64,000 nucleotides of DNA, taken from the NCBI RefSeq assembly GCF_000828675.1, contig NZ_AP014510.1:949413-1013412 (forward strand). The letters are read 5' to 3'. Shown piece by piece: positions 49,744-63,454 of the stretch. Position numbers and translations under genes: made by a program. The DNA is from Thermotoga profunda AZM34c06. Lineage in GTDB: Bacteria > Thermotogota > Thermotogae > Thermotogales > DSM-5069. The notes beneath the pieces are model-generated. The model saw only the letters and a list, made by a program, of their open reading frames with translations, had not been told where the DNA came from and ran no database searches. Every line of letters starts with the position of its first letter. The first letter of the stretch is position 1.

Positions 49744-50568
49744 TCAGCCCTTGTATGGGCCAGGATATTGCATCTTTTTGGAAGTTACATCTGCCGCAAG
49801 CTGAACAGCCATCTTGAGATCATCGAGAACGGTGGTAAAGGTTGCTAAGCAGGTATCACCTCTACCAGTCCTACCCTCGAGTTTGTATGGTAAGAATTTT
49901 GCCTCATAAAACTTCACACCATCATATGCACAAACGCCATCTTTGTGAGTTGCGAGAACTATTTTTACACCCATCGAATGAATTTGTTCACAGGCTTTCT
50001 TGAGATCCCTTTCACCTGTGAGAATATATGCTTCGTTGTTATCTACCTTAAAAACATCAAAGAGTTTGAGATATCTATTTTTCTGTGGCCAATCTTGGTA
50101 TCTCAACTGTCCGTCATCGACCACGTTTCTGAGAAATCCCTGTGCATCACCAATCAAGATTTTTGCTTTATCCCTTAGAACAGGTATCAATTCTTCCACG
50201 AATTCTCCATGCCAGAGCGCACTCAGAACGATCTTTTCGCACGATAAGTCTTTGATATCCTCTTTCTGAAACCGATTTGCCAAAGAAAGAACTCGACTGA
50301 TCCTGTCATCTGGATTTTCAGTGGGATAAAAATTTTCAATAGCTGTGGTAGTTTCACTTTCGAGAAATGAAACTTGAGTGCCTATTTTAAGCATTTCATC
50401 GTACAAAAATCGATCTTGAATCGCACACTTTGTCACAACCCTACAATTTGCACCTATTCTTTGTGCAGCGATACTTCCGTAGAACACTCCTCCTCCAGGC
50501 ACAACAACTGTCTTATTTGGTGTTTTATTGATATCCTTTGCAACATGACCTATAAAAAGAATTTCCAT
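49744..50568 (-). CDS. iolK: PfkB-family carbohydrate kinase, probable inositol kinase
   Basis: The 274-residue ribokinase-fold product resembles T. maritima TM0415 (IolK) from the inositol cluster: early FIGHVAKDIN, GGGVFYGSIAAQRIGA, mid DAQGFLRNVV, VDNNEAYILTGERDL, and the catalytic Asp in LEGRTGRGDTC near the C terminus, ending PGPYKG. It probably phosphorylates myo-inositol or an intermediate; the exact acceptor is not settled by sequence. ATG at 50568 is chosen over an upstream in-frame start lying inside the ATPase gene. Confidence 0.85.
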   Translation of the reverse strand: MEILFIGHVAKDINKTPNKTVVVPGGGVFYGSIAAQRIGANCRVVTKCAIQDRFLYDEMLKIGTQVSFLESETTTAIENFYPTENPDDRISRVLSLANRFQKEDIKDLSCEKIVLSALWHGEFVEELIPVLRDKAKILIGDAQGFLRNVVDDGQLRYQDWPQKNRYLKLFDVFKVDNNEAYILTGERDLKKACEQIHSMGVKIVLATHKDGVCAYDGVKFYEAKFLPYKLEGRTGRGDTCLATFTTVLDDLKMAVQLAADVTSKKMQYPGPYKG

Positions 50569-50581
50569 CCAAATCACTCTT

Positions 50582-51328
50582 TCACTTGACCCCCGCAGCT
50601 GCCGCAATGACATCCATTATGTACTGAGGGGTCACGTCTTTTCTGAGATAGTCACCTATTTTTTCGCCGCGCTCGAGTAGAACCAATCTGTCAGCTACTT
50701 CATACACGTGGTAGATGTTGTGTGTGATAAATATCACAGAGATGCCTCTTTTCTTTGCTTCTTCAATGTGTTCGAGAACCCTCCTGGTTTCGCCAACTGA
50801 TAGAGCTGCCGTTGGCTCATCCAGTATCAAGAGTTTTGCACCAAAATGAATAGCCCTTGCGATAGCAATAGCTTGCCTTTCTCCACCAGACATGAAAGCG
50901 ACGGTTTCATCTGGATTTCTCACAGATATACCTACATCATTCATCGCATCTACGACGATCTTTCTCATTTTCCTTCGTTCTATCCAAGAAAAGGGACCTA
51001 TCCTCTTGACCATCTCCCTACCTAAGAAGAAATTTCTCCACAATGGCATGAGATTAACAAGGGCAAGATCCTGATAGACCGTCTCTATACCAAGGTGTCT
51101 TGATTGCCAAGGAGATTTGAAACTGACCTTATTACCTTCAAAGTATATTTCTCCTTCGTCTGGTTGATAATATCCAACGAGTATCTTTATGAGAGTAGAT
51201 TTGCCGGCACCATTATCACCAAGTAATCCCACTATTTCGTTTCTTGAAACATGGAAATCCACACCTTTAAGAGCTTGTACTCTACCAAATGATTTTTTGA
51301 TATTCTTCATTTCCACAAGCAAGTTCAT
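50582..51328 (-). CDS. ABC importer ATPase, single-domain (inositol/ribose type)
   Basis: The 248-residue ATPase has Walker A GDNGAGKSTL, QDLALVNLMPLWRN at the Q-loop, signature MSGGERQAIAIARA, Walker B LLILDEPTAALS and switch FITHNIYHVYE, all typical of ribose/xylose (CUT2) ATPases. Classical RbsA-type proteins have two such domains in about 500 residues; here there is only one, so two copies must dimerise as in FrcA/XylG-like short forms. Overlaps the permease gene by 4 bases. Confidence 0.9.
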   Translation of the reverse strand: MNLLVEMKNIKKSFGRVQALKGVDFHVSRNEIVGLLGDNGAGKSTLIKILVGYYQPDEGEIYFEGNKVSFKSPWQSRHLGIETVYQDLALVNLMPLWRNFFLGREMVKRIGPFSWIERRKMRKIVVDAMNDVGISVRNPDETVAFMSGGERQAIAIARAIHFGAKLLILDEPTAALSVGETRRVLEHIEEAKKRGISVIFITHNIYHVYEVADRLVLLERGEKIGDYLRKDVTPQYIMDVIAAAAGVK

Positions 51329-52287
51329 CCTGCCACCTTCTTTCGAATCCTTGCATTTATGATTGCTGCAATTATTAGAATGATTCCTATAAAGGCTCTA
51401 TACCAATAGGCAGGAGCTCCTGCGAGTACCAAACCATTTCTAACCATACTTATCATCGTTGCACCTATGAGTGTACCAATGACACTTCCATAGCCACCCG
51501 TTAGAAGTGTCCCTCCCATAACGGCTGAAGCTATTGCCTCCAACTCGAGTTCCTGACCAAGTGTGGGGTCAACTATTTTGAAACGTGCAAAAGTCGTCAA
51601 CCCAGCAAAACCAGCTAAGATACTACATATCACAAAATTAGTTATCTTCACTCGCTCTGATGGTATTCCAAGGGCTTTCGCAGCTCCAAGGTTACCTCCT
51701 GTAGCAAAAGTCCAGTTTCCATATCGAGTTCGTTCCAGAATGATCCAAAAGACAAAAGTCAAAACAATGAACCAGACTGCAGAGTATCTCAAGCCACCGG
51801 TTACACGACCGCCGAGATATTCAAGCATTTTGATCCGCCTTGAAAGAATTATTGGAAATCCACCCGTCACTGCCAACAAGATGCCGCGCCAGAACATCAT
51901 CATTCCAAGAGTGGTTATGAAAGAAGGTATACCCGTCTTCAAAGTGATAAAACCATTTGTGAATCCAATTCCTACAGCAATGAGTAAACATAGAAAAAGT
52001 GAAAGATATTCATTCATCTTGTGGTTTACCATTATCGCAAAGACCATTGGAACTACAGCAAAAACAGCACCAACAGATAAATCAAATTCACCACTAATCA
52101 TGAGCATACAAACACCAATGGCTATGATTCCAAGCTCAGCCGCCATTGTCAAAGTATTCATTAAGTTATCTAAGGTGGAAAATCGACTTGATAAAAAAGA
52201 AAAGATCACAAAAAACACAGCAATTCCAACAACTGCGCCAAATTCCTTTATTCTCAAAAAAGAAAGATAATCTTTCTTCCTTGTCAA
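51325..52287 (-). CDS. ABC importer permease (inositol/ribose type)
   Basis: A 320-residue RbsC-like permease with about nine to ten membrane segments and the family stretches LMISGEFDLSVGAVFAVVPM, GFITLKTGIPSFITTLGMMM, ATGGNLGAAKALGIPSERVK and GTLLTGGYGSVIGTLIGA. I place the start at TTG 52287, five bases after AAAGGGTGG; the open frame extends 132 bases further but would cover a terminator-like hairpin and the end of the binding-protein gene. Confidence 0.88.
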   Translation of the reverse strand: MTRKKDYLSFLRIKEFGAVVGIAVFFVIFSFLSSRFSTLDNLMNTLTMAAELGIIAIGVCMLMISGEFDLSVGAVFAVVPMVFAIMVNHKMNEYLSLFLCLLIAVGIGFTNGFITLKTGIPSFITTLGMMMFWRGILLAVTGGFPIILSRRIKMLEYLGGRVTGGLRYSAVWFIVLTFVFWIILERTRYGNWTFATGGNLGAAKALGIPSERVKITNFVICSILAGFAGLTTFARFKIVDPTLGQELELEAIASAVMGGTLLTGGYGSVIGTLIGATMISMVRNGLVLAGAPAYWYRAFIGIILIIAAIINARIRKKVAG

Positions 52288-52303
52288 AACGACCACCCTT
52301 TTC

Positions 52304-52328
52304 AAAGAGGGTGGCACCAGCCACCCTC
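52304..52328 (-). terminator. Terminator-like hairpin between binding protein and permease (first importer)
   Basis: Minus strand GAGGGTGG-CTGGTG-CCACCCTC followed by TTTG: an eight-base stem (52307-52314 with 52321-52328), six-base loop, a short T tail. It lies between the binding-protein stop and the permease SD. Confidence 0.75.
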
Positions 52329-52339
52329 TGGTAAATTCA

Positions 52340-53272
52340 TTAACGGTAACCCAATTGCACCGTCTTTTCGACGATTTCCACGTTACTCTTATCAACAATT
52401 GATGGTCCAGTGAGAACATCTTCGTGCGGAATCAAACCAAATTCTTTATACAAATACAAGAAAACGATTGGTAAATAACCTTGCAGATACTGTTGTTGGT
52501 CAATCGTGAAAACAACGACACCTCTTTTGATGGCATCGGTTATTTTCGTTGTCAAGTCAATAGCACCTATTTTCACTTTACCAACGAGATTTTCTTCTTC
52601 AACAAGTTGTATTGCGGGATGTGCACCAAGTGGTCCAAGAGTGAATATTGCGTTGGTATCAGGGTATTTTGTCAAATAGCTTTTGAGTAATGTCAAAGCC
52701 TTCGTCGGGTCTGTTGTGATATCGAGTTTTTCCACAGGTATCTTCTTTTCCGCTAAAACATCTGCTATACCTTTTGCCCTTGCTTCAAGCCCCACATGAC
52801 CTGGTTCGTGAATCGCCACAACGGCTCTTTTCGGTGTGAATTCCTGGAGCATCCTTCTTGCCGCATAAACTCCTGCAAGGTACTCATTCATACCTACATA
52901 ACACAGATATGGAATCTTCTCATCAGCAGATCTGTCATCTGGAACGTTGATCGCAACTACAGGAATACCCATTTCAATTGCTTTTCTGAGTGGCTCATCC
53001 AATGCCACAGGGTTCGTAATTGTGACAACAAGACCGTCTGGTCTTTTGACTATTGCTGAATTGACAAGATCGATGAATTCTTTGAGAGAGAATTTTTCTG
53101 GTCCGAGGTAAACCGCATCGACTCCGAATTTTGCCGCTGCATCTTTGACACCTTTCATGACAACTCCCCAGAATGGATCAGCCGGACCACCATGTGATAC
53201 GACATAGAATGTGTAACTAAAAACAGCGACAGACACCATGGCAACAATTAACAATGTTACCAGTCTTTTCAC
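52340..53272 (-). CDS. Sugar/inositol-binding protein (ribose type)
   Basis: The 310-residue product has a signal peptide (MKRLVTLLIVAMVSVAVFS) and the type I periplasmic-binding fold: FYVVSHGGPADPFWGVVMKG, ITNPVALDEPLRKAIEMGIPVVAINVPDD, YVGMNEYLAGVYAARRML and GAIDLTTKITDAIKRGVVVFTIDQQQYLQGYLP. T. maritima has a binding protein of this kind in its inositol cluster. GTG start at 53272 after GGGGGGAT. Flanked by a hairpin on each side, suggesting an mRNA segment of its own. Confidence 0.88.
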   Translation of the reverse strand: MKRLVTLLIVAMVSVAVFSYTFYVVSHGGPADPFWGVVMKGVKDAAAKFGVDAVYLGPEKFSLKEFIDLVNSAIVKRPDGLVVTITNPVALDEPLRKAIEMGIPVVAINVPDDRSADEKIPYLCYVGMNEYLAGVYAARRMLQEFTPKRAVVAIHEPGHVGLEARAKGIADVLAEKKIPVEKLDITTDPTKALTLLKSYLTKYPDTNAIFTLGPLGAHPAIQLVEEENLVGKVKIGAIDLTTKITDAIKRGVVVFTIDQQQYLQGYLPIVFLYLYKEFGLIPHEDVLTGPSIVDKSNVEIVEKTVQLGYR

Positions 53273-53290
53273 AAAGATCCCCCCTAATAT

Positions 53291-53311
53291 GAAGGCGCTC
53301 AAGGCGCCTTC
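53291..53311 (-). repeat. Intergenic hairpin upstream of the inositol-binding-protein gene
   Basis: Perfect eight-base arms GAAGGCGC (53291-53298) and GCGCCTTC (53304-53311) with a five-base loop, between iolN and the binding-protein gene. No T-run follows on the minus strand, so it looks like a processing or 5'-stabilising hairpin rather than a terminator. Confidence 0.6.
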
Positions 53312-53314
53312 AAA

Positions 53315-54283
53315 TCACCACATATTTCCCAAGCTGTATATGCTCCTCCAACCTGGTTCAAATGGTTTCTTCAGTGCGGCATCTAATTCCTCTTTAGGTC
53401 TCTGAGAAAGTTCATTGGCAGGTGGGAGCTTACCCACTGGATAGGTCTTCATGATGTCGTTGACGAGTTTTTCAAGATAATCGAGTAATGCCTCTACTCC
53501 CTCCTTGGCTTTTTCTGCACTTGCCTTAGTTGCCTTCCCAACGACACCTTCTGGATACGCAGCAACTTCAATCGGCCCACCACCAACGTGTCCATACCAC
53601 GCGATGGCCCTGTGCAGCAGATTACCCGCCTTGTCGATATGGCCTTCTGGCATATAACCACGTGGTGTTGTATCCACCGCCCATTCTTGATGACAAAACT
53701 CCGGGAACAAAGCAAGACTCCAAGAAGTTTCTACTTCATCAGCGTGGATGAAATTGGTCTCATACGGTCCACCGTCTTTTTTGAGTTTGAATTTATCCTG
53801 AATCGCATGATACCAATTTACGTTGAAGATCATCGCAGGTACTTGGAAGATCTTCGCAAATTTGTGTATTGCGACAGGTATGACAAACTCTTGCCCATGG
53901 CCATTTAATAAGATCTGCTTCCTAAATCCTGCATTCCAAAATCCAGCGATGACACTGACCAAAAGATCTATGAAGGCTTCATCTTTCACTGGTACTGTCC
54001 CAGGCATACCGATGTGGTGATATGGGTGAAAACCATACCAAATTGGTTCTGCCACAGTACAACCTGTCTTCAATGCAACTTGTTCTGCCATTCTCGTAAC
54101 TAAGAAAGTATCTTCACCAGTCGGTGCATTCGGGCCGTGATTTTCCGTACTTCCAACTGGAATAATTATTAAATCGCATTTTTTCAATCTTTCTTCTATT
54201 TCTTTCATAGTCATCGTCTGATAATAAACTCCAGATGGTTTCTCCATGTGACCTTCTTTCGGTGGTATTTCCCATTTTGGCAT
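53315..54283 (-). CDS. iolN: Creatininase-family hydrolase, probable IolN
   Basis: Predicted to hydrolyse the ring product formed by IolM to 5-keto-L-gluconate, step three of the Thermotoga inositol route. The 322-residue product has the creatininase-family metal sites: PVGSTENHGPNAPTGEDTF (Glu, His, Asp), PYHHIGMPGTVP, LLNGHGQEFVIP and FIHADEVETSWSLA (His, Glu). Creatinine metabolism is unlikely between iolG and the inositol transporter. ATG at 54283 follows GGAGGG by six bases; a TTG six bases earlier is less well spaced. Assignment rests on family and position. Confidence 0.83.
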   Translation of the reverse strand: MPKWEIPPKEGHMEKPSGVYYQTMTMKEIEERLKKCDLIIIPVGSTENHGPNAPTGEDTFLVTRMAEQVALKTGCTVAEPIWYGFHPYHHIGMPGTVPVKDEAFIDLLVSVIAGFWNAGFRKQILLNGHGQEFVIPVAIHKFAKIFQVPAMIFNVNWYHAIQDKFKLKKDGGPYETNFIHADEVETSWSLALFPEFCHQEWAVDTTPRGYMPEGHIDKAGNLLHRAIAWYGHVGGGPIEVAAYPEGVVGKATKASAEKAKEGVEALLDYLEKLVNDIMKTYPVGKLPPANELSQRPKEELDAALKKPFEPGWRSIYSLGNMW

Positions 54284-54285
54284 AT

Positions 54286-55272
54286 TCAACCCTCCAATCT
54301 CACATGTGCACTACCACTTTCGACGGCCTTGTAACATGCATCGATGATCTTTATCACTTTTACACCGTCACTCACAGTAACAGGGGGAGTCTTGTGTTCC
54401 TTAAGACAATCGATAAAAAGTCTGTTTTCGGTTATGTATCCCCATTTTTCTTTGAAATCTACTTTTGTGAAATCGTGGCTCTCAACTTCTTTTCCAAGGC
54501 CTTTGCAGAAATGTACTCTTTCCATTTCCTCATTTGTCATCATCATGTGCTCACCATAAACTTCAACTCTTTCAAAAGGTATCATCCAACTTGCATGAGC
54601 GCATGATGTGAAAGTACCTATGATTCCATTTTTCATCTTCATTGCAATCGACCAATCATCGATATCTGGGTAAACACTCTTTTTACCCAAGACATACATC
54701 TCTTCAATATCTCCAAAGAGCCACCGCGCCATATCAAAGAGATGCAAGGTACTCTCAAAGAGGAATCCTCCAGTGTATGACCTGTCTGATGTCCATGGTG
54801 GATTGAGTAATTCTCCTCTGTTCATTTTTATCTGGAATGAATAAGGTTTCACAGTCCCATTATCTATTCTCTCTTTCATGAAAGTATATACATGGGCAAA
54901 TCTTCTGTTGTGACCCACTTGAAAAATCGCACCTTTTTCTTTGACCTTCGATTCTAATGCTAAGGCATCTTTCAAAGAAATAGTCATCGGCTTTTCACAA
55001 AACACATTCAAGCCAGTTTCGAGTGCATTCATGGCATATTCAAAATGCGTTTTGTTTGGTGATGTGATATACACAGCATTTATACCGGCGTCTTTCATTT
55101 GTCTTAAATCGTCAAAAACTTTTGCCTTGAATCTTTCTGCAACTGATTTTGCTCTGTTTTTGTCTACATCCATCACACCAACAATCTCAACATCATCAAA
55201 GGTCGAAAGAATTTCCAAATGTACCTGACCTATGAATCCACTTCCAATGACTCCAACTCTAACCTTTTCCAT
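54286..55272 (-). CDS. iolG: myo-Inositol 2-dehydrogenase (Gfo/Idh/MocA family)
   Basis: Oxidises myo-inositol to 2-keto-myo-inositol with NAD. The 328-residue product has the Rossmann GVIGSGFIGQVH, the family motif VFCEKPMTIS with its catalytic Lys, and the C-terminal domain including NRGELLNPPWTSDRSYTGGFLFESTLHLFD (the His near residue 175 is the usual catalytic one). ATG at 55272 follows GAGGTGA. Neighbours IolM and IolN make the inositol assignment likely over other cyclitols or sugars. Confidence 0.88.
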   Translation of the reverse strand: MEKVRVGVIGSGFIGQVHLEILSTFDDVEIVGVMDVDKNRAKSVAERFKAKVFDDLRQMKDAGINAVYITSPNKTHFEYAMNALETGLNVFCEKPMTISLKDALALESKVKEKGAIFQVGHNRRFAHVYTFMKERIDNGTVKPYSFQIKMNRGELLNPPWTSDRSYTGGFLFESTLHLFDMARWLFGDIEEMYVLGKKSVYPDIDDWSIAMKMKNGIIGTFTSCAHASWMIPFERVEVYGEHMMMTNEEMERVHFCKGLGKEVESHDFTKVDFKEKWGYITENRLFIDCLKEHKTPPVTVSDGVKVIKIIDACYKAVESGSAHVRLEG

Positions 55273-55282
55273 AGAAGTCACC

Positions 55283-56470
55283 TCAAGGGTTGAGCATAGT
55301 TACCTTGATGAGTTCCTTGTCAGTTTGCAATTTCTTTATGTATTCAGGTATCTCCTCAAGCTTCACTGTTTTAGAGATCATCTTGGTCATATCCATTCCC
55401 GTTGCCATTAGGCTTATAACCCTTGGAAAATTACCATGTCCTGAGTGACCTTGCGAACCAACTATCTGGGCACGTCTTACTTGGAAGATCTCACCGGTTA
55501 CGGGGATCTTTGCATCTGCCCTTGCCACTATCACAACAGTTGCATTCACACCTCTTGCTCTCCAGATAGTTTCTTCAATGTCTTTCCAAACAATCTGGGG
55601 TAGACCTGTAGCCTCTAAATAGATTTTTGCGCCCATGCCATTGGTACTATCCAAAACCGCTTCAACGAAATTCTCTTTTGTTGGATCTATGACAACATCT
55701 GCACCCAACTCTTTTGCGAGTTTTCTTCTTGTTTCCGATGGTTCTGAAAGTATTACCTTAGCTCCACCTGCCCTTTTAAGCACAGCAACGGCTGCAAGTC
55801 CTATAGGTCCTCCGCCGAGAATCACCACATTGTCTCCTGGTCTTATACCTCCACCTCTTTCTATAACTGCGTTATAAGCAACGGAAGTTGGTTCAACAAG
55901 ACTACCAGCCAAGAACAATTTGTCACCTTGATAATTTTTTTCAAGTTCCCTTAAACTCCACAGATATTTCGCATCAGATATCACGTATTTTGCAAAAGCA
56001 CCATCGATATCAAATCCAATTTCATGGAGATTTTCGCAATGATTTGGATAACCATCTGCACATGGCCTGCAATGACCACACCAGAACATTTCTTCAGAAG
56101 TCACCGGTTCTCCAGGTTCAAATCTCTTATTTGTTCTTCTGTTTATTGCCTCTGGTCCAGCATCGACAACAATTCCTGAAAATTCGTGACCAAGCGTTGC
56201 AGGGAATCCCGTTAATCCGGGATAGAGCATATAACCATCCTGATCTGCCTGTGCCATGTGAACGTCACTTCCACAAATTCCACATGCTTTTACTTGAATC
56301 AGTACTTCTGTGGGCTTTTTGATCTTAGGTTCTGGAACTTCCTCTACAACAACCTGTGGATAGCGCCAAACCTTGCTACCAAGCCAACAAACCTTTCCTT
56401 CAATGTCCTTAGGGCCAAGTTTAAACCCCGGTCTTGGCTCCCATTTTGCATGCAGTCTTACTGCCTTCAT
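55283..56470 (-). CDS. iolM: Zinc-dependent dehydrogenase, probable IolM
   Basis: Medium-chain alcohol dehydrogenase of 395 residues, predicted to oxidise 2-keto-myo-inositol in the second step of the Thermotoga route. Catalytic zinc ligands in CGICGSDVHMAQ and TLGHEFSG, structural zinc cysteines in MFWCGHCRPCADGYPNHC, cofactor loop VVILGGGPIGLAAVAVL, followed by an acidic residue (LSEPSE) suggesting NAD. ATG at 56470 has GGAGGGGTGG upstream. It is the first gene of the 16 kb minus-strand run. Confidence 0.86.
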   Translation of the reverse strand: MKAVRLHAKWEPRPGFKLGPKDIEGKVCWLGSKVWRYPQVVVEEVPEPKIKKPTEVLIQVKACGICGSDVHMAQADQDGYMLYPGLTGFPATLGHEFSGIVVDAGPEAINRRTNKRFEPGEPVTSEEMFWCGHCRPCADGYPNHCENLHEIGFDIDGAFAKYVISDAKYLWSLRELEKNYQGDKLFLAGSLVEPTSVAYNAVIERGGGIRPGDNVVILGGGPIGLAAVAVLKRAGGAKVILSEPSETRRKLAKELGADVVIDPTKENFVEAVLDSTNGMGAKIYLEATGLPQIVWKDIEETIWRARGVNATVVIVARADAKIPVTGEIFQVRRAQIVGSQGHSGHGNFPRVISLMATGMDMTKMISKTVKLEEIPEYIKKLQTDKELIKVTMLNP

Positions 56471-56502
56471 TTCCACCCCTCCTAAGGTAGCCATTCGGCT
56501 CC

Positions 56503-56689: not shown

Positions 56690-57454
56690 TTGTTCACTGA
56701 AGAGAGGAGAAACGTGATTCTGGATCTTTTACGAAAGAAAGGGAAGGTAACTGTTAATGAATTAACCCGGCAGTTAAGGGTGAGTAGTGTGACAATAAGA
56801 AAGGATCTTGATTTTTTAGAAGCAAACGGATCAATTGTCAGGACTCATGGTGGTGCTATCCTTCCAGATCACTCGCGCTCTGAATGGAATTTTCTGAAAA
56901 AAATACACCAACGAGAAAACGAAAAGAAAAGAATAGCCAAGAAAATAGTATCATTAATCGAGGATGGAGATACAGTTATACTCGATAGTAGTAGTACCAA
57001 TTACTATGCAACATTTGAACTTAGAAAATCAGATCTTTCTATGATCACCGTTGTCACAAATAACGTCTTCATTGCAGGAAAGCTCATAGAATTGGGCATT
57101 GAAGTGCTCGTACTTGGTGGTGTAGTTAGAGAGAATAGCTTGTCGCTCGTAGGACCTTGGGCTCTAAGATTTTTGGAGGAAATCAATGTTGATAAGGCAT
57201 TCTTGGGTACAACAGGATTTTCCATTGATAAAGGCTTTATGACCCCGAGCGTTGTCGAAGCAGACGTAAAAAAAGCAATGATAAGAAGCGCTTCGAAAGT
57301 ATATATTGTGACAGATTCCACAAAATTCACACGCAGTGCTTTTGCTTCATTTGCCTTACCTGAAGAAGTTGACGGTGTCATAACAGATGAAAACATACCG
57401 AAAGAATTTGAAGCTTTCTTACTCGAAAAAGGCGTTCAAGTTTACAAAACATAA
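56690..57454 (+). CDS. DeoR-family transcriptional regulator
   Basis: The 254-residue product has the N-terminal winged HTH ERRNVILDLLRKKGKVTVNE with VTIRKDLDFLEANGSIVRTHGG, the DeoR signature. The C-terminal sugar-phosphate-sensing domain includes ILDSSSTNYYATFEL, VTNNVFIAGKLIELG, VLGGVVRENSLSLVGP and KAFLGTTGFS. Such regulators usually repress until a phosphorylated intermediate binds. Divergent from iolM and first in the uxaE operon, it is the obvious local regulator of both. TTG start, five bases after GGAGGGG. Confidence 0.88.
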   Translation: MFTEERRNVILDLLRKKGKVTVNELTRQLRVSSVTIRKDLDFLEANGSIVRTHGGAILPDHSRSEWNFLKKIHQRENEKKRIAKKIVSLIEDGDTVILDSSSTNYYATFELRKSDLSMITVVTNNVFIAGKLIELGIEVLVLGGVVRENSLSLVGPWALRFLEEINVDKAFLGTTGFSIDKGFMTPSVVEADVKKAMIRSASKVYIVTDSTKFTRSAFASFALPEEVDGVITDENIPKEFEAFLLEKGVQVYKT

Positions 57455-57468
57455 AGGGGGAGATCGCA

Positions 57469-58947
57469 TTGAAAAAACAAATTGGATATTTTCTCAAAGA
57501 ATTTGAGAAACTAACAACTGGCAAGTACCAAGTTTATCAAGATTCAATTCACCAGATAGACACTTCTATTTTCTTTATATGCAGGGACAAGGATAGAAAA
57601 CAACTCGTGATAATAGGAAAGAAAGGTATATGTGAGAGATTCGAAGCCAACAAGATTGGAGAAATTAATGATCTGGATGTAGTAATTTGCCAACTTTCTC
57701 ACAAAAACTGTGACACAATAAAAGATTTATTCAGTTTAAATCCAAAAAGATGTAATAAAAAAACTTCATTTGGTTTTGGTGATAGACTTGGGATTGCAAC
57801 TCCTGCACATGCTCAAGCCGCGAAAGATCATGATTTATTTCCAATCTTTGCTCAACAGTCTGTTAGGGAATTATCAAGAACACAGAGAACCTTCAAAGAT
57901 GCACTTGACAGTGCTGTGTGGGGTGTCTTTGAGAGTGGATATCACAAAGATTTTGGTGCTGATGCAGATCATGTGAAGCAAATCGATGATCTTTTGAACG
58001 CCGCACATGAAGGATACAGTATGTACACATTAGATCCATCGGATCATGTTAGAGATATCGATAAAATGAGTCAAAAAGAGATCGCTGAGTTTTATCAATC
58101 TCATCCAGAAAGAAGGGAACTTGAATCAAAATACGTTGGAAAAACTTTTAACCTATCAAAACAAAAACTCGTTATGGACGAAGAGAGTTTTGTAAAAATT
58201 TTTGTTACGTACATCGATGTGATAAAGCACGTCGTCAGATGTTATGATGCGCTCAAAAGCGTTAAAAGAGATTTTGATCTTGAAGTCTCGATAGATGAAA
58301 CTTCAACACCAACAACCCCACTGGCACATATATTCATTGCAGAAGAACTCAGAAGAAAAGGTGTGGATTTTCAAACCCTTGCACCAAGATTCATCGGACA
58401 ATGGCAAAAAGGGATAGATTACATAGGTGATCTTTCTATTCTTGAGAAAGAGATGACCATTCATGGTGAAATTGTCAAGATTCTCTCTGGATACAGACTT
58501 TCATTGCACTCGGGAAGTGATAAATTTAGTGTATATTCGATCTTTGCAAAATGTACTGAAGGTAATTTGCATATCAAGACTGCGGGGACAAGTTATTTAG
58601 AGGCAATCAAGGTAATAGCAGTAAAAGACGCTGTATTGTACAGAGACATACACAGATATGCCCTTGAACGCTTTGAAATAGATAGGGCATCATACCACGT
58701 GACAACAGATCTCAACAAGATACCTAATGTTGATAAGATGAGCGACACAGATCTTGTGAAACTCTTCGATATACCAGATGCTCGCCAATTGATCCATATA
58801 ACATACGGTTCAATTCTCACAGCAAAAGAGTCGGGACATTATCTTTTCAAAGATCGTATTTTCAAAGTATTATTTGATAACGAAAAATTGCACTACGAAT
58901 TCGTCAAAAATCACATGGAAAAACATCTCAATCTACTAAAAATTTGA
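57469..58947 (+). CDS. uxaE: Tagaturonate/fructuronate epimerase
   Basis: Converts D-tagaturonate to D-fructuronate, joining the inositol and galacturonate routes to fructuronate. The 492-residue product matches T. maritima UxaE (TM0440) as I recall it: SFGFGDRLGIATPAHAQA, FPIFAQQSVRELSRTQRTF, SGYHKDFGADADHVKQIDD, DPSDHVRDIDK, SIDETSTPTTPLAHIF, LHSGSDKFSVY and TAGTSYLEA. TTG start at 57469 after AAGGGGGAGAT. It takes up directly where IolO stops, although it is on the other strand. Confidence 0.9.
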   Translation: MKKQIGYFLKEFEKLTTGKYQVYQDSIHQIDTSIFFICRDKDRKQLVIIGKKGICERFEANKIGEINDLDVVICQLSHKNCDTIKDLFSLNPKRCNKKTSFGFGDRLGIATPAHAQAAKDHDLFPIFAQQSVRELSRTQRTFKDALDSAVWGVFESGYHKDFGADADHVKQIDDLLNAAHEGYSMYTLDPSDHVRDIDKMSQKEIAEFYQSHPERRELESKYVGKTFNLSKQKLVMDEESFVKIFVTYIDVIKHVVRCYDALKSVKRDFDLEVSIDETSTPTTPLAHIFIAEELRRKGVDFQTLAPRFIGQWQKGIDYIGDLSILEKEMTIHGEIVKILSGYRLSLHSGSDKFSVYSIFAKCTEGNLHIKTAGTSYLEAIKVIAVKDAVLYRDIHRYALERFEIDRASYHVTTDLNKIPNVDKMSDTDLVKLFDIPDARQLIHITYGSILTAKESGHYLFKDRIFKVLFDNEKLHYEFVKNHMEKHLNLLKI

Positions 58948-58961
58948 AAGGGGTGTTTAAG

Positions 58962-59786
58962 ATGAACGAGGCTTACAAATTGTTCAATCTGGAAGGGAAA
59001 GTCGTAGTAATAACAGGTGGTGCAGGTATACTCGGCTCGGCTATAGGTAGAGGTTTAGCAAAATTTGGAGCAAGGATTGCTGTTTGTGACATCAAGAACT
59101 TTGATGTCGTAGCAAGTGAGATGCAAAAGGCTGGTTTTGAAGCAAAGGGTTACTACATGGATGTTTTGAACATCGATGTGATCAAAAAAGCCTACGATGA
59201 GATTTTGAAAGACTTTGGTAAAGTAGATGTCTTGCTCAACGCCGCAGGAGGGAACATGCCTCAAGCAACAACATCGGCTGAATTGAGTTTTTTTGATCTT
59301 CCATTGGACGCCTTACAGAAAGTAGTTGCATTGAATTTGTTCGGTGGGGCAATATTACCTTCACAGGTCTTTGGTAAATTCATGGTTCAAAGGCCAGAAG
59401 GTGGATCAATAATCAATATTTCTTCAATGGCAGCATTCAGACCATTAACACGCACAATTGGATATTCTGCAGCAAAAGCCGCAGTGAGTAATTTCACTCA
59501 ATGGCTTGCCGTTCACCTTGCCATGGAATACAACAAGAATCTAAGGGTTAATGCAATTGCACCAGGCTTTTTCTTAACACAACAAAACAGATATTTGTTG
59601 CTCGATGAACAGGGAAATCTCACACCAAGGGGAAAGGCTATAATCGATCACACGCCAATGGGTAGGTTTGGAGATCCAGATGATCTCATTGGCGTATGTG
59701 TATGGTTATGCTCAGAAGCATCAAAGTTTGTAACAGGTGCTGTTATACCGATAGACGGTGGATTCAACGCATATTCTGGGGTATGA
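58962..59786 (+). CDS. uxuB: D-fructuronate reductase (D-mannonate oxidoreductase), SDR type
   Basis: Reduces D-fructuronate to D-mannonate with NAD(P)H. The 274-residue product has TGGAGILGSAIG, NAAGGNMPQATT (characteristic of YjmF/UxuB-type SDRs), INISSMAAF, and GYSAAKAAVSNFTQWLAVH (Tyr/Lys), then APGFFLTQQNRYLLLDEQGN and IPIDGGFNAYSGV at the end. ATG at 58962 follows AAAGGGGTG by six bases; an earlier ATG at 58944 overlaps uxaE. Directly downstream of uxaE, whose product is its substrate. Confidence 0.88.
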   Translation: MNEAYKLFNLEGKVVVITGGAGILGSAIGRGLAKFGARIAVCDIKNFDVVASEMQKAGFEAKGYYMDVLNIDVIKKAYDEILKDFGKVDVLLNAAGGNMPQATTSAELSFFDLPLDALQKVVALNLFGGAILPSQVFGKFMVQRPEGGSIINISSMAAFRPLTRTIGYSAAKAAVSNFTQWLAVHLAMEYNKNLRVNAIAPGFFLTQQNRYLLLDEQGNLTPRGKAIIDHTPMGRFGDPDDLIGVCVWLCSEASKFVTGAVIPIDGGFNAYSGV

Positions 59787-59799
59787 AGAAGGTGTAGTG

Positions 59800-61077
59800 A
59801 TGAGTTTCATAGAGAATCTTTCAGGTGAATTGAGCTCAAAAGAACTATCTGAACTAATCGAACGTGTATTACCAGATGAGAAACTTGAGAAAGTCCTTTT
59901 GATACACCCAGATTATACACGTCAAGATTTCTCAGATAGGTTAGTTCCTCTGGTGTACGAGCATTTGAAAAAAAGAGGTTTGAAGATTCTTCATACTTTG
60001 AATGCAAGTGGAACACACCGAGCAATGAGTGAGAAAGAAGTTCGAAAGAAACTCGGACTTTACAAAGAAGAGCTTGTCTTTTTCAACCATGAGTATGCCA
60101 ACCCGAATGCGTTGACAACTGTCGGAATTCTGAGCAAAGAATTCGTGAGTGAAAAAACCATGGGTGATCTTGAAGAGCCACTACCAGTGACATTGAACAA
60201 ATTGTTTTTTGAAAAATACGATTTGATAATTGTTTTAAGTGGTACTTCTCCTCATGAATCTACAGGCTTTTCTGGTGGTTTGAAGTCGATAATACCTGGT
60301 ATCGCTGGACCGGATGTTGTCGGTTTGTTTCACTGGGCTGCCGTTTTGATAGGTATTCCAAGAATCATTGGCTCAGAAAACAACCCTGCAAGAGAAGTGA
60401 TCAATGAAGCCTGTAAGATTGCCTTTGAAAAAGTGAATTCACCTGTTCTGTTTTTGAACATGGTGTATGAAGAGACAGATAATGGAATTCTTGCAAAAGG
60501 CCTCTACACAGGTTTTGACCTTGAAGGATCATTGAAAGCATACAAACAAGCGGTGAAAGCAAGTCAGCGGATTCATATAATCTACCTCGATAAACCTGTG
60601 AAGATAGCCGTACAGGTAATTGGAGAAAACTACGACGAAATCTGGACTGCAGGAAAAGGCTCATACAAACTTCAAAGACCAGGAGTCCTTGTATCCAATG
60701 GAGAAATCATAATTTATGCACCCCACATTGAAATCTTTCATTCAAACCCACAAATGGACAGATCTATACGTGAAATTGGATACCATTGCAAAGATTATGT
60801 CAAAGAATTTCTGAAAAAACATCCCAAATTTGATCTAAACGTAGCATCACATGTAATAAATGTGAGAGGAGATGGCACGTACGACCCAATATTGAAAAAG
60901 GAAGAATTTGCTTTCACGGTAACTCTTGCAACTTCTATACCCAAAGAAGAATGTGAAGCAGTTGGACTGGCTTATCGTGACCCAAGATCGATCAGAAAAG
61001 AAGATTTTCAATCAGATGACTGCCTCTGGATCGAACACGGTGGAAAATTTCTGTACGATCTAAAAAGGGAGGCATAA
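59800..61077 (+). CDS. LarA-family (DUF2088) nickel-pincer racemase/epimerase homologue
   Basis: The 425-residue product has the length of lactate racemase LarA and its active-site residues by spacing: Asp38/Arg41 in HPDYTRQD, His73 in ASGTHRAM, His152 in SGTSPHESTGFSGG, Lys162 in GGLKSIIPG (cofactor-tethering Lys) and His178 in VGLFHWA (Ni ligand). Spacing 152-162-178 equals that in LarA. Lactate is an unlikely substrate here; other LarA homologues epimerise C2 of hydroxy acids, including D-gluconate/D-mannonate. Being next to the mannonate-forming reductase, a mannonate/gluconate 2-epimerase is my leading guess. larB/C/E are not in the window. ATG at 59800 after AAGGTG. Confidence 0.85.
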   Translation: MSFIENLSGELSSKELSELIERVLPDEKLEKVLLIHPDYTRQDFSDRLVPLVYEHLKKRGLKILHTLNASGTHRAMSEKEVRKKLGLYKEELVFFNHEYANPNALTTVGILSKEFVSEKTMGDLEEPLPVTLNKLFFEKYDLIIVLSGTSPHESTGFSGGLKSIIPGIAGPDVVGLFHWAAVLIGIPRIIGSENNPAREVINEACKIAFEKVNSPVLFLNMVYEETDNGILAKGLYTGFDLEGSLKAYKQAVKASQRIHIIYLDKPVKIAVQVIGENYDEIWTAGKGSYKLQRPGVLVSNGEIIIYAPHIEIFHSNPQMDRSIREIGYHCKDYVKEFLKKHPKFDLNVASHVINVRGDGTYDPILKKEEFAFTVTLATSIPKEECEAVGLAYRDPRSIRKEDFQSDDCLWIEHGGKFLYDLKREA

Positions 61078-61080
61078 ACA

Positions 61081-62403
61081 ATGAAAAATGTCGTAATTGC
61101 ACAATCAGGAGGCCCAACCTCTGTTATCAACAACAGTTTGCGTGGGGCAATTGAAACATTCATGAACAGTGGCAAAGTTGGAAAGATCTATGGTGCAAAA
61201 ATGGGAATCTTGGGAGTTCTGAACGAAGAACTCGTAGATATAACAGCGCAAGATCCAAAGCAGATCAAACTGCTTGAGAAAACCCCATCGGCAGGGGTAA
61301 TAGGAAGTTGCAGATACAAGATCAAATCGCAAGAAGATTTGGAAAGAATTGTCGAAGTCTTCAAAGCACACGATGTTGGATATTTTCTTTATTGTGGCGG
61401 AGAAGATTCAATGGATACTGCAAATAAGGTGAGTTTACTTGCCCGTGAGAAAGGTCTTGAAGTTATCTGTGTTGGTATTCCAAAGACTATAGACAACGAC
61501 CTTGGTGGAAAGCTTCAAAGCGATGGAACTTTCGCCATATGCGACCACGACCCTGGATATGGCAGTGTGGCAAGAAATACAGCAATAAATGTTCTTGAAG
61601 CGAATGAAGAGAATAAAGCAAGTTATACATCTGATCCAGTACTTGTTATAGGTGTGATGGGCAGAAAGATGGGATTCATAACTGCTTCTGCAAGACTTGC
61701 AGATCCAAAAAGAGAAATGCCACTTCTGGTGATACTTCCTGAGGCGCTTTCACAAGATGATTACAAATCAAATCTTGAATACATCACCCAGAAAGTGAAT
61801 GAAACATTGAAAATTCACAAAAGATGTATTGTCGTAATTGGTGAAGGTGTGAATGTGGGAGATTTGGGAATACTCAAAGACAGTTTTGGACATGCTCAGT
61901 TCAGTGCAGCAGAAAAAAGTGCAGAACAAGTCCTTGCAAACTATTTGAATGGTCTTGACAGGAAAGATGAAAAAGGAAGGGCAAGGAGCAGACTGATCGT
62001 CCCCGGCATTGCAAGGTACGAAAAACCAGGGACAAGACAGAGAAGGGAAATCGCGTATGTTTCCAAAGTGGATTTGAAGGAAGCCTATGAAGTTGGTGCT
62101 TTTGCAGCAACACTCGCCTTAAACGGCGAGACAGGTTATATGGCAACGATTATAAGAGTGCCAGGAGAAAAATACGAAGTCCAATACTCAAAAATTCCAC
62201 TGAGTGTTGTCGCTAACTCTGCCAGAGAATTTCCAAAACAGTGGATCAGCGAAAACAAAGTCGACGTGACAGACGATTTTGTGAAGTGGGCAATGCCCTT
62301 GATAGGTGATCCACTACCTGAATTTGCAAACTTCAGAGAGATAATGGCACCCAAATTGTGTTCAACATATATTCCGGCAGGTTTGAGACAGCAAGGAGCG
62401 TGA
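61081..62403 (+). CDS. PPi-type 6-phosphofructokinase homologue
   Basis: The 440-residue phosphofructokinase-family product has the N-terminal AQSGGPTSVINNSLRG, the phosphoryl-donor motif CGGEDSMDT (residues 105-113) and PKTIDNDLGG (134-143). Lys in PKTIDND and a non-Gly after the acidic residue are hallmarks of pyrophosphate users; the ATP enzymes have GGDGS and PGTIDND. The usual PPi form is GGDDS or GGNDS, so the Glu here is unusual. Substrate-side segment VMGRKMGFITA is intact. In a sugar-acid operon it may act on fructose 6-phosphate or on a different acceptor. SD GGGAGG. Confidence 0.88.
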   Translation: MKNVVIAQSGGPTSVINNSLRGAIETFMNSGKVGKIYGAKMGILGVLNEELVDITAQDPKQIKLLEKTPSAGVIGSCRYKIKSQEDLERIVEVFKAHDVGYFLYCGGEDSMDTANKVSLLAREKGLEVICVGIPKTIDNDLGGKLQSDGTFAICDHDPGYGSVARNTAINVLEANEENKASYTSDPVLVIGVMGRKMGFITASARLADPKREMPLLVILPEALSQDDYKSNLEYITQKVNETLKIHKRCIVVIGEGVNVGDLGILKDSFGHAQFSAAEKSAEQVLANYLNGLDRKDEKGRARSRLIVPGIARYEKPGTRQRREIAYVSKVDLKEAYEVGAFAATLALNGETGYMATIIRVPGEKYEVQYSKIPLSVVANSAREFPKQWISENKVDVTDDFVKWAMPLIGDPLPEFANFREIMAPKLCSTYIPAGLRQQGA

Positions 62404-62410
62404 AAAAAAG

Positions 62411-63454
62411 ATGTATACCAGACTAACACACAAAGAGTTGAAAGAAAGACCAAGAGAGCAACTTTTGAATTTCAAAAGAACCAAGAAATTCCTTGTCGCA
62501 ATTGACACAGATGGATGCGTTACAGACAACATGAATGGAAAACAGATTTTGATCTTCCATCCGCATTTCATGGAATTCTACAATCTGTGGGAGATAGAAT
62601 CTTATTACAGAGAAATAGCGGAATACTACAATCTCTTCTCGGAGCACAGAGGATGTAATAGATTCATAGCAATCCAGCTCATTCTCCATGCTTTATATGA
62701 AAGAAATGATGTACAACAGATAGTAAAAGAAAAGAACATAAAGCTTCCAGATCTGAAAATCCTTGAAGATTTCATAGAATATACCAAGAAGAATAACTTA
62801 GGCCTTGGAAATCAGAGCTTGGAGAAATACATAAACGAAGAAAGACCAACGACTCTTGGCTTGTACAAATTGCTCGGTTGGAGTGAAGCAGTGAATAGAA
62901 CTTTTCCTCACATCTCAGCAGAAATACCTCCATTTGATGGTGTGGAAGAAGCTGTGAAACTCATGTCACAATATGCTGATATCATAGTTGTCTCACAAAC
63001 ACCCTATGATGATCTTGCAGATTACTGGGAAAAATACAGTCTTGCTCAGTACATATCTCTAATCGCTGGACAAGAGATGGGAACAAAAGCGCAACACATA
63101 GAATTTGCGAAAAAATCAGGTGGATATGCAGATGATGAAGTTTTGATGATAGGTGATGCGATAGGCGATTTGAAAGCTGTCAAATCGAACAACGGTTTGT
63201 TCTACCCAGTTGTCCCTGGAGAAGAAGAAAAATCGTGGCGTGAATTTGAGAAGGCATTTGAAAGATTCATTAAGCATGAATATGCAGGGAAATTTGAAGA
63301 AGACCTCTTGGATAAATTCAACAATGTGCTTTCACAAAAAGAGCCGTGGAATCAACCTAACTATGACCACATAGAACATTACAAGAAATACCAAAATCTG
63401 AGAGTGCAACTATACAAGAGATTCAATCCTACAGGAAGATTACTTGTAATATAA
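62411..63454 (+). CDS. Large HAD-superfamily protein of unknown function
   Basis: The 347-residue product has HAD motif I LVAIDTDGCVTDN (Asp32, Asp34), motif II VVSQTP, a Lys in GTKAQHIEF, and motif IV LMIGDAIGDLKA, so phosphatase chemistry is intact. Motif I reads DTDG rather than DxDGT. The 150-residue insertion after motif I, with FYNLWEIESYYREIAEYYN and AIQLILHALYER, is a helical cap unlike the usual type I or II caps. I do not know a named family. It follows the PFK homologue by 7 bases and ends at a terminator. Confidence 0.75.
   Translation: MYTRLTHKELKERPREQLLNFKRTKKFLVAIDTDGCVTDNMNGKQILIFHPHFMEFYNLWEIESYYREIAEYYNLFSEHRGCNRFIAIQLILHALYERNDVQQIVKEKNIKLPDLKILEDFIEYTKKNNLGLGNQSLEKYINEERPTTLGLYKLLGWSEAVNRTFPHISAEIPPFDGVEEAVKLMSQYADIIVVSQTPYDDLADYWEKYSLAQYISLIAGQEMGTKAQHIEFAKKSGGYADDEVLMIGDAIGDLKAVKSNNGLFYPVVPGEEEKSWREFEKAFERFIKHEYAGKFEEDLLDKFNNVLSQKEPWNQPNYDHIEHYKKYQNLRVQLYKRFNPTGRLLVI

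Follow-up and report, generated by a model that had tools for sequence, protein, structure and literature searches.

A predicted GntE-type epimerase of the LarA superfamily in Thermotoga profunda and the supply of its NPN cofactor

How does a genome without recognizable larB, larC and larE genes serve an apparently intact enzyme of the LarA superfamily? LarB, LarC and LarE are, to our knowledge, the only known way to NPN, the nickel-pincer nucleotide cofactor of these enzymes. The question is raised by a locus in Thermotoga profunda AZM34c06, which was examined within a window of 64,000 nucleotides (the whole stretch of DNA analyzed, to which all coordinates refer unless another locus is named), taken from a closed genome of 2,187,612 bases, rated 99.99% complete. 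The unexpected part is the missing cofactor genes, which are lacking in a whole family of bacteria, in several closed genomes, alongside intact LarA-type enzymes, and the inositol/uronate route encoded in the T. profunda genome appears to depend on one such enzyme. At issue is cofactor sharing versus a second biosynthetic route for NPN. The same operon also hints at a gluconokinase family, possibly new, that has the phosphofructokinase fold.

The gntE product and its relatives

The gntE open reading frame (positions 59800-61077, plus strand, 425 codons) starts with an ATG at 59800, 5' of which lies a purine-rich GAAGAAGG run; a longer frame begins at 59758 with a GTG. Residues of the product are numbered here from the ATG. 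The relationship to LarA is confirmed, and chance is excluded as its explanation: the Pfam model Lar_N matches with E=1.4e-22 (80.4 bits, cut-off 23.3), and the best solved relative is PDB chain 4nar_A, matched over residues 11-423 with 541.5 bits and E=1.1e-161. The 4NAR structure is that of T. maritima GntE2 (PMC7583248), with which our protein shares 56-58% identity (56% over 434 aligned columns).

The first-pass annotation of this locus had recognized a LarA-like active site with the LarA spacing of His152, Lys162 and His178, and these positions prove exact. In the alignment with GntE2, Asp38, Arg41, His73, His152, Lys162, His178 and Lys286 correspond, respectively, to Asp38, Arg41, His73, His154, Lys164, His180 and Lys287. 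By reference to the residues assigned in GntE2 (PMC7583248), both the NPN-binding set (R41, K162, H178) and the catalytic set (D38, H73, H152, K286) are complete. The substrate signature of GntE enzymes, defined in the same study as Glu-Ser, Gly and Asn (PMC7583248), is present as well, in the form of E153 and S154 after the catalytic His, G285 before the catalytic Lys, and N347 at the start of helix alpha-14. All residues of the three kinds are identical in the gntE product and GntE2, and the phylogenetic tree places the two in one clade together with all other Pseudothermotoga GntEs. Judged by sequence and tree, the gntE product is a full-length ortholog of T. maritima GntE2/LarAH20, and it is annotated, by homology, as a LarA-superfamily D-mannonate/D-gluconate 2-epimerase of that group.

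The closest curated model is NCBIfam NF052594 (NPN_18, putative hexonate epimerase), which scores 192 bits under a cut-off of 500. T. maritima GntE2 also falls far under this cut-off, with 194 bits; membership in group 18 was rejected on this account, and the like scores indicate that both proteins belong to a neighboring group without a model of its own. Identification as a lactate racemase or a malate racemase was likewise rejected, because the respective models score far below their cut-offs (67.5 bits for the LarA model, cut-off 460) and because the residues at the substrate positions match GntE2. Lactate racemase LarA of Lactobacillus plantarum belongs to the same superfamily, and its mechanism residues are conserved in the gntE product, but it has bulky hydrophobic substrate residues where the latter has E153, S154, G285 and N347. 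NPN-dependent 2-epimerization of D-gluconate is also catalyzed by Corynebacterium glutamicum GntE1/LarAH19 and by Phytophthora LarAH15 (PMC7583248, PMC11770544); these enzymes, however, come from other phylogenetic groups, and the KM of GntE1 for mannonate is very high.

Within the genus, the dN/dS of gntE is about 0.04-0.05 (with dS near saturation), similar to that of the operon neighbors. The gene is under strong purifying selection in the family, and the enzyme is not decayed.

Operon context and the route from mannonate

The operon is encoded on the plus strand and headed by a DeoR-family transcriptional regulator (56690-57454; Pfam DeoRC and HTH_DeoR), found at the same position in relatives. 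It continues with uxaE, for tagaturonate-fructuronate epimerase (57469-58947; Pfam UxaE, 644.8 bits), uxaD, for an SDR-family fructuronate reductase, or D-mannonate oxidoreductase (58944-59786; NCBIfam PRK08277, 357.7 bits, cut-off 281), gntE, and a gene for a PFK-family kinase, PFKx (61081-62403). The gaps on the two sides of gntE are 13 and 3 bases; its position between a fructuronate reductase and a kinase in one operon stands as first described. The core of uxaE, uxaD and gntE recurs in 16 related loci (in genome G047 uxaD lies apart), and this gene order is common to Thermotoga and Pseudothermotoga; in Aerophobetes, Atribacterota and Actinomycetota, gnd is found between uxaD and gntE.

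An inositol catabolic cluster on the minus strand diverges from this operon. It encodes IolM, scyllo-inosose 3-dehydrogenase (55283-56494; NF041097, 529 bits, over cut-off), an IolG-like inositol 2-dehydrogenase (54286-55281; TIGR04380, 189.5 bits, under cut-off, placed with iolM and iolN), IolN, 3-dehydro-scyllo-inosose hydrolase (53315-54289; NF041098, 544 bits, over cut-off), and an ABC transporter, probably for inositol (50582-53302), consisting of an ATPase (50582-51328), a permease (51325-52419) and a binding protein (52340-53302). The binding protein matches the rhizopine-binding model NF052284 with 238.6 bits, below cut-off, and the permease is of the ribose type; in relatives, the transporter genes are kept beside iolGMN. 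The cluster ends with a divergent PfkB-type kinase (49744-50613), barely above the Pfam cut-off.

T. maritima GntE2 epimerizes D-mannonate and D-gluconate with a measured kcat of 197 per s and a KM of 17 mM at 80-90 C (PMC7583248), and its gene also follows uxaE-uxaD. By analogy with this counterpart, the gntE product very probably converts mannonate to gluconate; orthology to an enzyme whose reaction was measured lends support to the sugar-acid epimerase suggested in the first-pass annotation. Given the high KM of GntE2 for mannonate, the true substrate could also be a different sugar acid. In the proposed route, inositol (via IolG, IolM and IolN) and hexuronates would lead to tagaturonate, which UxaE would convert to fructuronate, and UxaD would reduce the latter to D-mannonate. 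GntE would then invert C2 of D-mannonate by the LarA mechanism, in which one histidine would take the hydroxyl proton while a hydride would pass to the pyridinium-nickel cofactor and be returned on the other face. The resulting D-gluconate would be phosphorylated to 6-phosphogluconate, with the PFK-family protein encoded next to gntE as the probable kinase, and this product would enter the pentose phosphate pathway via Gnd.

Such a route would stand in for mannonate dehydratase, in agreement with the bypass proposed earlier for this locus. In a search that covered the UxuA type (PF03786), no mannonate dehydratase was found anywhere in the genome, and 6-phosphogluconate dehydrogenase is encoded in it, away from the gntE cluster; together, these observations make GntE look needed, as the apparent exit for mannonate. 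Taking these lines together, we consider it very likely that GntE is an NPN-dependent D-mannonate/D-gluconate 2-epimerase on a route to 6-phosphogluconate that takes the place of mannonate dehydratase.

The exit from mannonate had been thought to be new, and it is not: both the epimerase and the pathway step are known from T. maritima. An exit from mannonate to the pentose phosphate pathway was proposed by Rodionova et al. in 2012 from the T. maritima gnd-uxaE-uxaD-gntE-gntK cluster, as described in PMC6978723 and PMC3750489, and the reaction was shown by Desguin et al. in 2020 (PMC7583248). The two clusters differ in that the one in T. maritima contains an FGGY-family GntK and gnd, whereas T. 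profunda has the PFK-family kinase, with gnd elsewhere. In Lactobacillus suebicus, mannonate kinase and 6-phosphomannonate 2-epimerase likewise take uronate breakdown through mannonate to 6-phosphogluconate, but phosphorylation there precedes epimerization, and the epimerase gene is unidentified in that organism (PMC6978723).

LarA homologs in genomes without larB, larC and larE

We searched for the cofactor genes with models of LarC (PF01969), LarB (NF033503) and LarE (TIGR00268), with T. maritima as the positive control. There were no matches over cut-off in the closed T. profunda genome, and none in the other 10 genomes of the family (Pseudothermotoga and close genera), even though LarA homologs are carried by all 11. 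Identical searches found all three genes in the T. maritima control and in T. maritima-like genomes, where LarC was also confirmed by NCBIfam; in this respect the otherwise similar T. maritima system differs from that of T. profunda. Across the 61 Thermotogota genomes, a search with the gntE product found LarA homologs in 29; one or more of larB, larC and larE accompany them in 11 genomes, and 18, closed genomes included, have none. No Thermotogota genome among the 61 has any of the three genes without a LarA homolog. The absence is thus lineage-specific, and it is hard to ascribe to missing sequence. In the literature searched, which was not exhaustive, we found no report of LarA homologs in genomes devoid of larB, larC and larE.

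The weaker matches that were examined as hidden LarB or LarE genes were rejected. The weak LarB match, located at 606 kb, proves to be PurE (purE model, 197 bits), and three of the five weak LarE matches are NAD synthase (NadE), GMP synthase (GuaA) and an unnamed PP-loop protein. The latter, of 327 amino acids, has weak similarity to LarE and NAD synthase (locus L185, 683-1663, at about 1.651 Mb of the T. profunda genome); weak matches of similar size recur among many Thermotogota, and T. maritima has one in addition to its true LarE.

Without larB, larC and larE, the enzyme may be deprived of NPN in vivo, and the first-pass annotation had named such absence as grounds for giving up its epimerase proposal. 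No recognizable copies were indeed found; the GntE assignment is nonetheless retained, because residues, selection and operon context point to a working enzyme. Nor is GntE alone in this genome, as two further LarA homologs keep all NPN and catalytic residues. One of them (locus L133, 7958-9232, at about 498 kb of the genome) exceeds the cut-off of the NCBIfam model for LarAH6 malate racemase and adjoins genes for a dehydratase-like protein, malic enzyme and a TctABC-type tripartite carboxylate transporter. The other, a divergent one (locus L134, 5963-9395, at about 118 kb), is preceded by genes for a DUF362 protein and a 2-hydroxyacid dehydrogenase; after it comes a TctA-type transporter similar to that of L133. 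Loci L136, L137, L140 and L142, from genus g3, contain a LarA group with Arg in place of the equivalent of catalytic Lys298 and with the other NPN and catalytic residues kept.

Three intact LarA-type users of NPN with no recognizable maker suggest either import of the cofactor or an unfamiliar route to it. We put at about even the chance that NPN-dependent epimerases and racemases operate in Pseudothermotoga and several other Thermotogota in the absence of LarB, LarC and LarE, served by uptake of ready-made NPN from other microbes or by an undiscovered pathway; we infer a supply of this kind from the retained enzymes.

As a possible, if tentative, explanation, GntE would be kept by descent, and NPN, or a late precursor of it, would be imported from neighbors that have larB, larC and larE. 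The 18 Thermotogota genomes with orphan LarA homologs are in line with this, as are the NPN-contact residues, which are entirely conserved in every GntE and LarA homolog of the family that was aligned. Candidate makers exist: eight of the nine GntE genomes outside Thermotogota, mostly draft MAGs, have a LarC match (two only in pieces), and LarC is full or in large pieces in seven of the nine, with one more partial. On the other hand, we know of no NPN transporter, and the gene tree indicates that GntE was inherited across the whole family, as was the malate-racemase-like homolog, which is a long span for reliance on import. The chemistry is plausible, since LarA homologs in the apo form are activated in vitro by mere addition of NPN (PMC7583248).

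Rather unlikely, in our estimate, is that the family makes NPN with enzymes of little or no homology to LarB, LarC and LarE. Such a pathway would account for three LarA homologs in three operons of one genome, with NPN residues kept and purifying selection wherever tested, and for the one that exceeds the malate racemase cut-off and has genes for malic enzyme and a carboxylate transporter in its vicinity; against it, no candidate gene was found, the weak LarB match and the three named LarE matches being accounted for as above. That the LarA homologs of the family have abandoned NPN, either for a different function or to fall idle, would fit the loss of all three known biosynthesis genes, but it is improbable given the NPN-specific Lys and the Ni-ligand His, invariant in all 44 aligned LarA homologs, a dN/dS of about 0.05, the conserved operon, and the lack of an alternative UxuA in the genome.

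The kinase and the HAD-superfamily protein downstream of gntE

PFKx matches only models of PPi-dependent phosphofructokinases (PRK14072, 354 bits) and no known gluconokinase family. Its orthologs, 71-92% identical, follow gntE in other Pseudothermotoga, other Thermotogae, Aerophobetes and Atribacterota. They form a subfamily whose shared insertions, which follow the PKTIDND motif and surround the QR motif, are absent from the ordinary PPi-phosphofructokinases of related genomes; a single-sequence structure model of PFKx has a pLDDT of 36. An FGGY gluconokinase takes the place of PFKx in Thermotoga and in genome G015, and is encoded near the cluster in G047. In a search that covered the FGGY family, no protein of the T. 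profunda genome exceeds the gluconokinase cut-off, and the genome does encode other phosphofructokinases. The simplest reading of this gene context is that the PFKx subfamily phosphorylates gluconate, which makes PFKx a candidate gluconokinase.

Phosphorylation of sedoheptulose 7-phosphate or fructose 6-phosphate for the lower pentose phosphate route is a doubtful alternative. The closest relatives of characterized type are PPi-phosphofructokinases, a transketolase gene comes after the cluster in genome G055, and PFKx keeps the QR motif as well as an Arg that precedes it by nine positions; with some of the anion-binding Arg residues of the fold in place, a sugar phosphate could be the substrate. 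The adherence of the gene to gntE in three phyla, its replacement by FGGY or PfkB kinases in or near gntE clusters elsewhere, the other phosphofructokinases of a genome that lacks an FGGY gluconokinase over cut-off, and the subfamily-specific insertions all argue for the candidate gluconokinase instead. In genome G001 and the genomes of g3, gntE has no PFKx nearby; should the route operate in them, a different kinase must take on the phosphorylation.

In two Actinomycetota MAGs, a PfkB-family kinase is encoded between gnd and gntE (locus L177, 4860-5939, and locus L178, 8915-9994), and kinases next to gntE thus come from three folds (FGGY, PFK-A and PfkB) across lineages. In the T. profunda operon, PFKx is followed by a HAD-superfamily hydrolase, HADx (62411-63454, plus strand; Pfam HAD_2), which has no NCBIfam family. 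Its orthologs, 65-88% identical across three phyla, are always seen beside PFKx. The structure model of HADx has a HAD core, and Foldseek relates it to HAD phosphatases with E of about 5e-5, all of them generic relatives.
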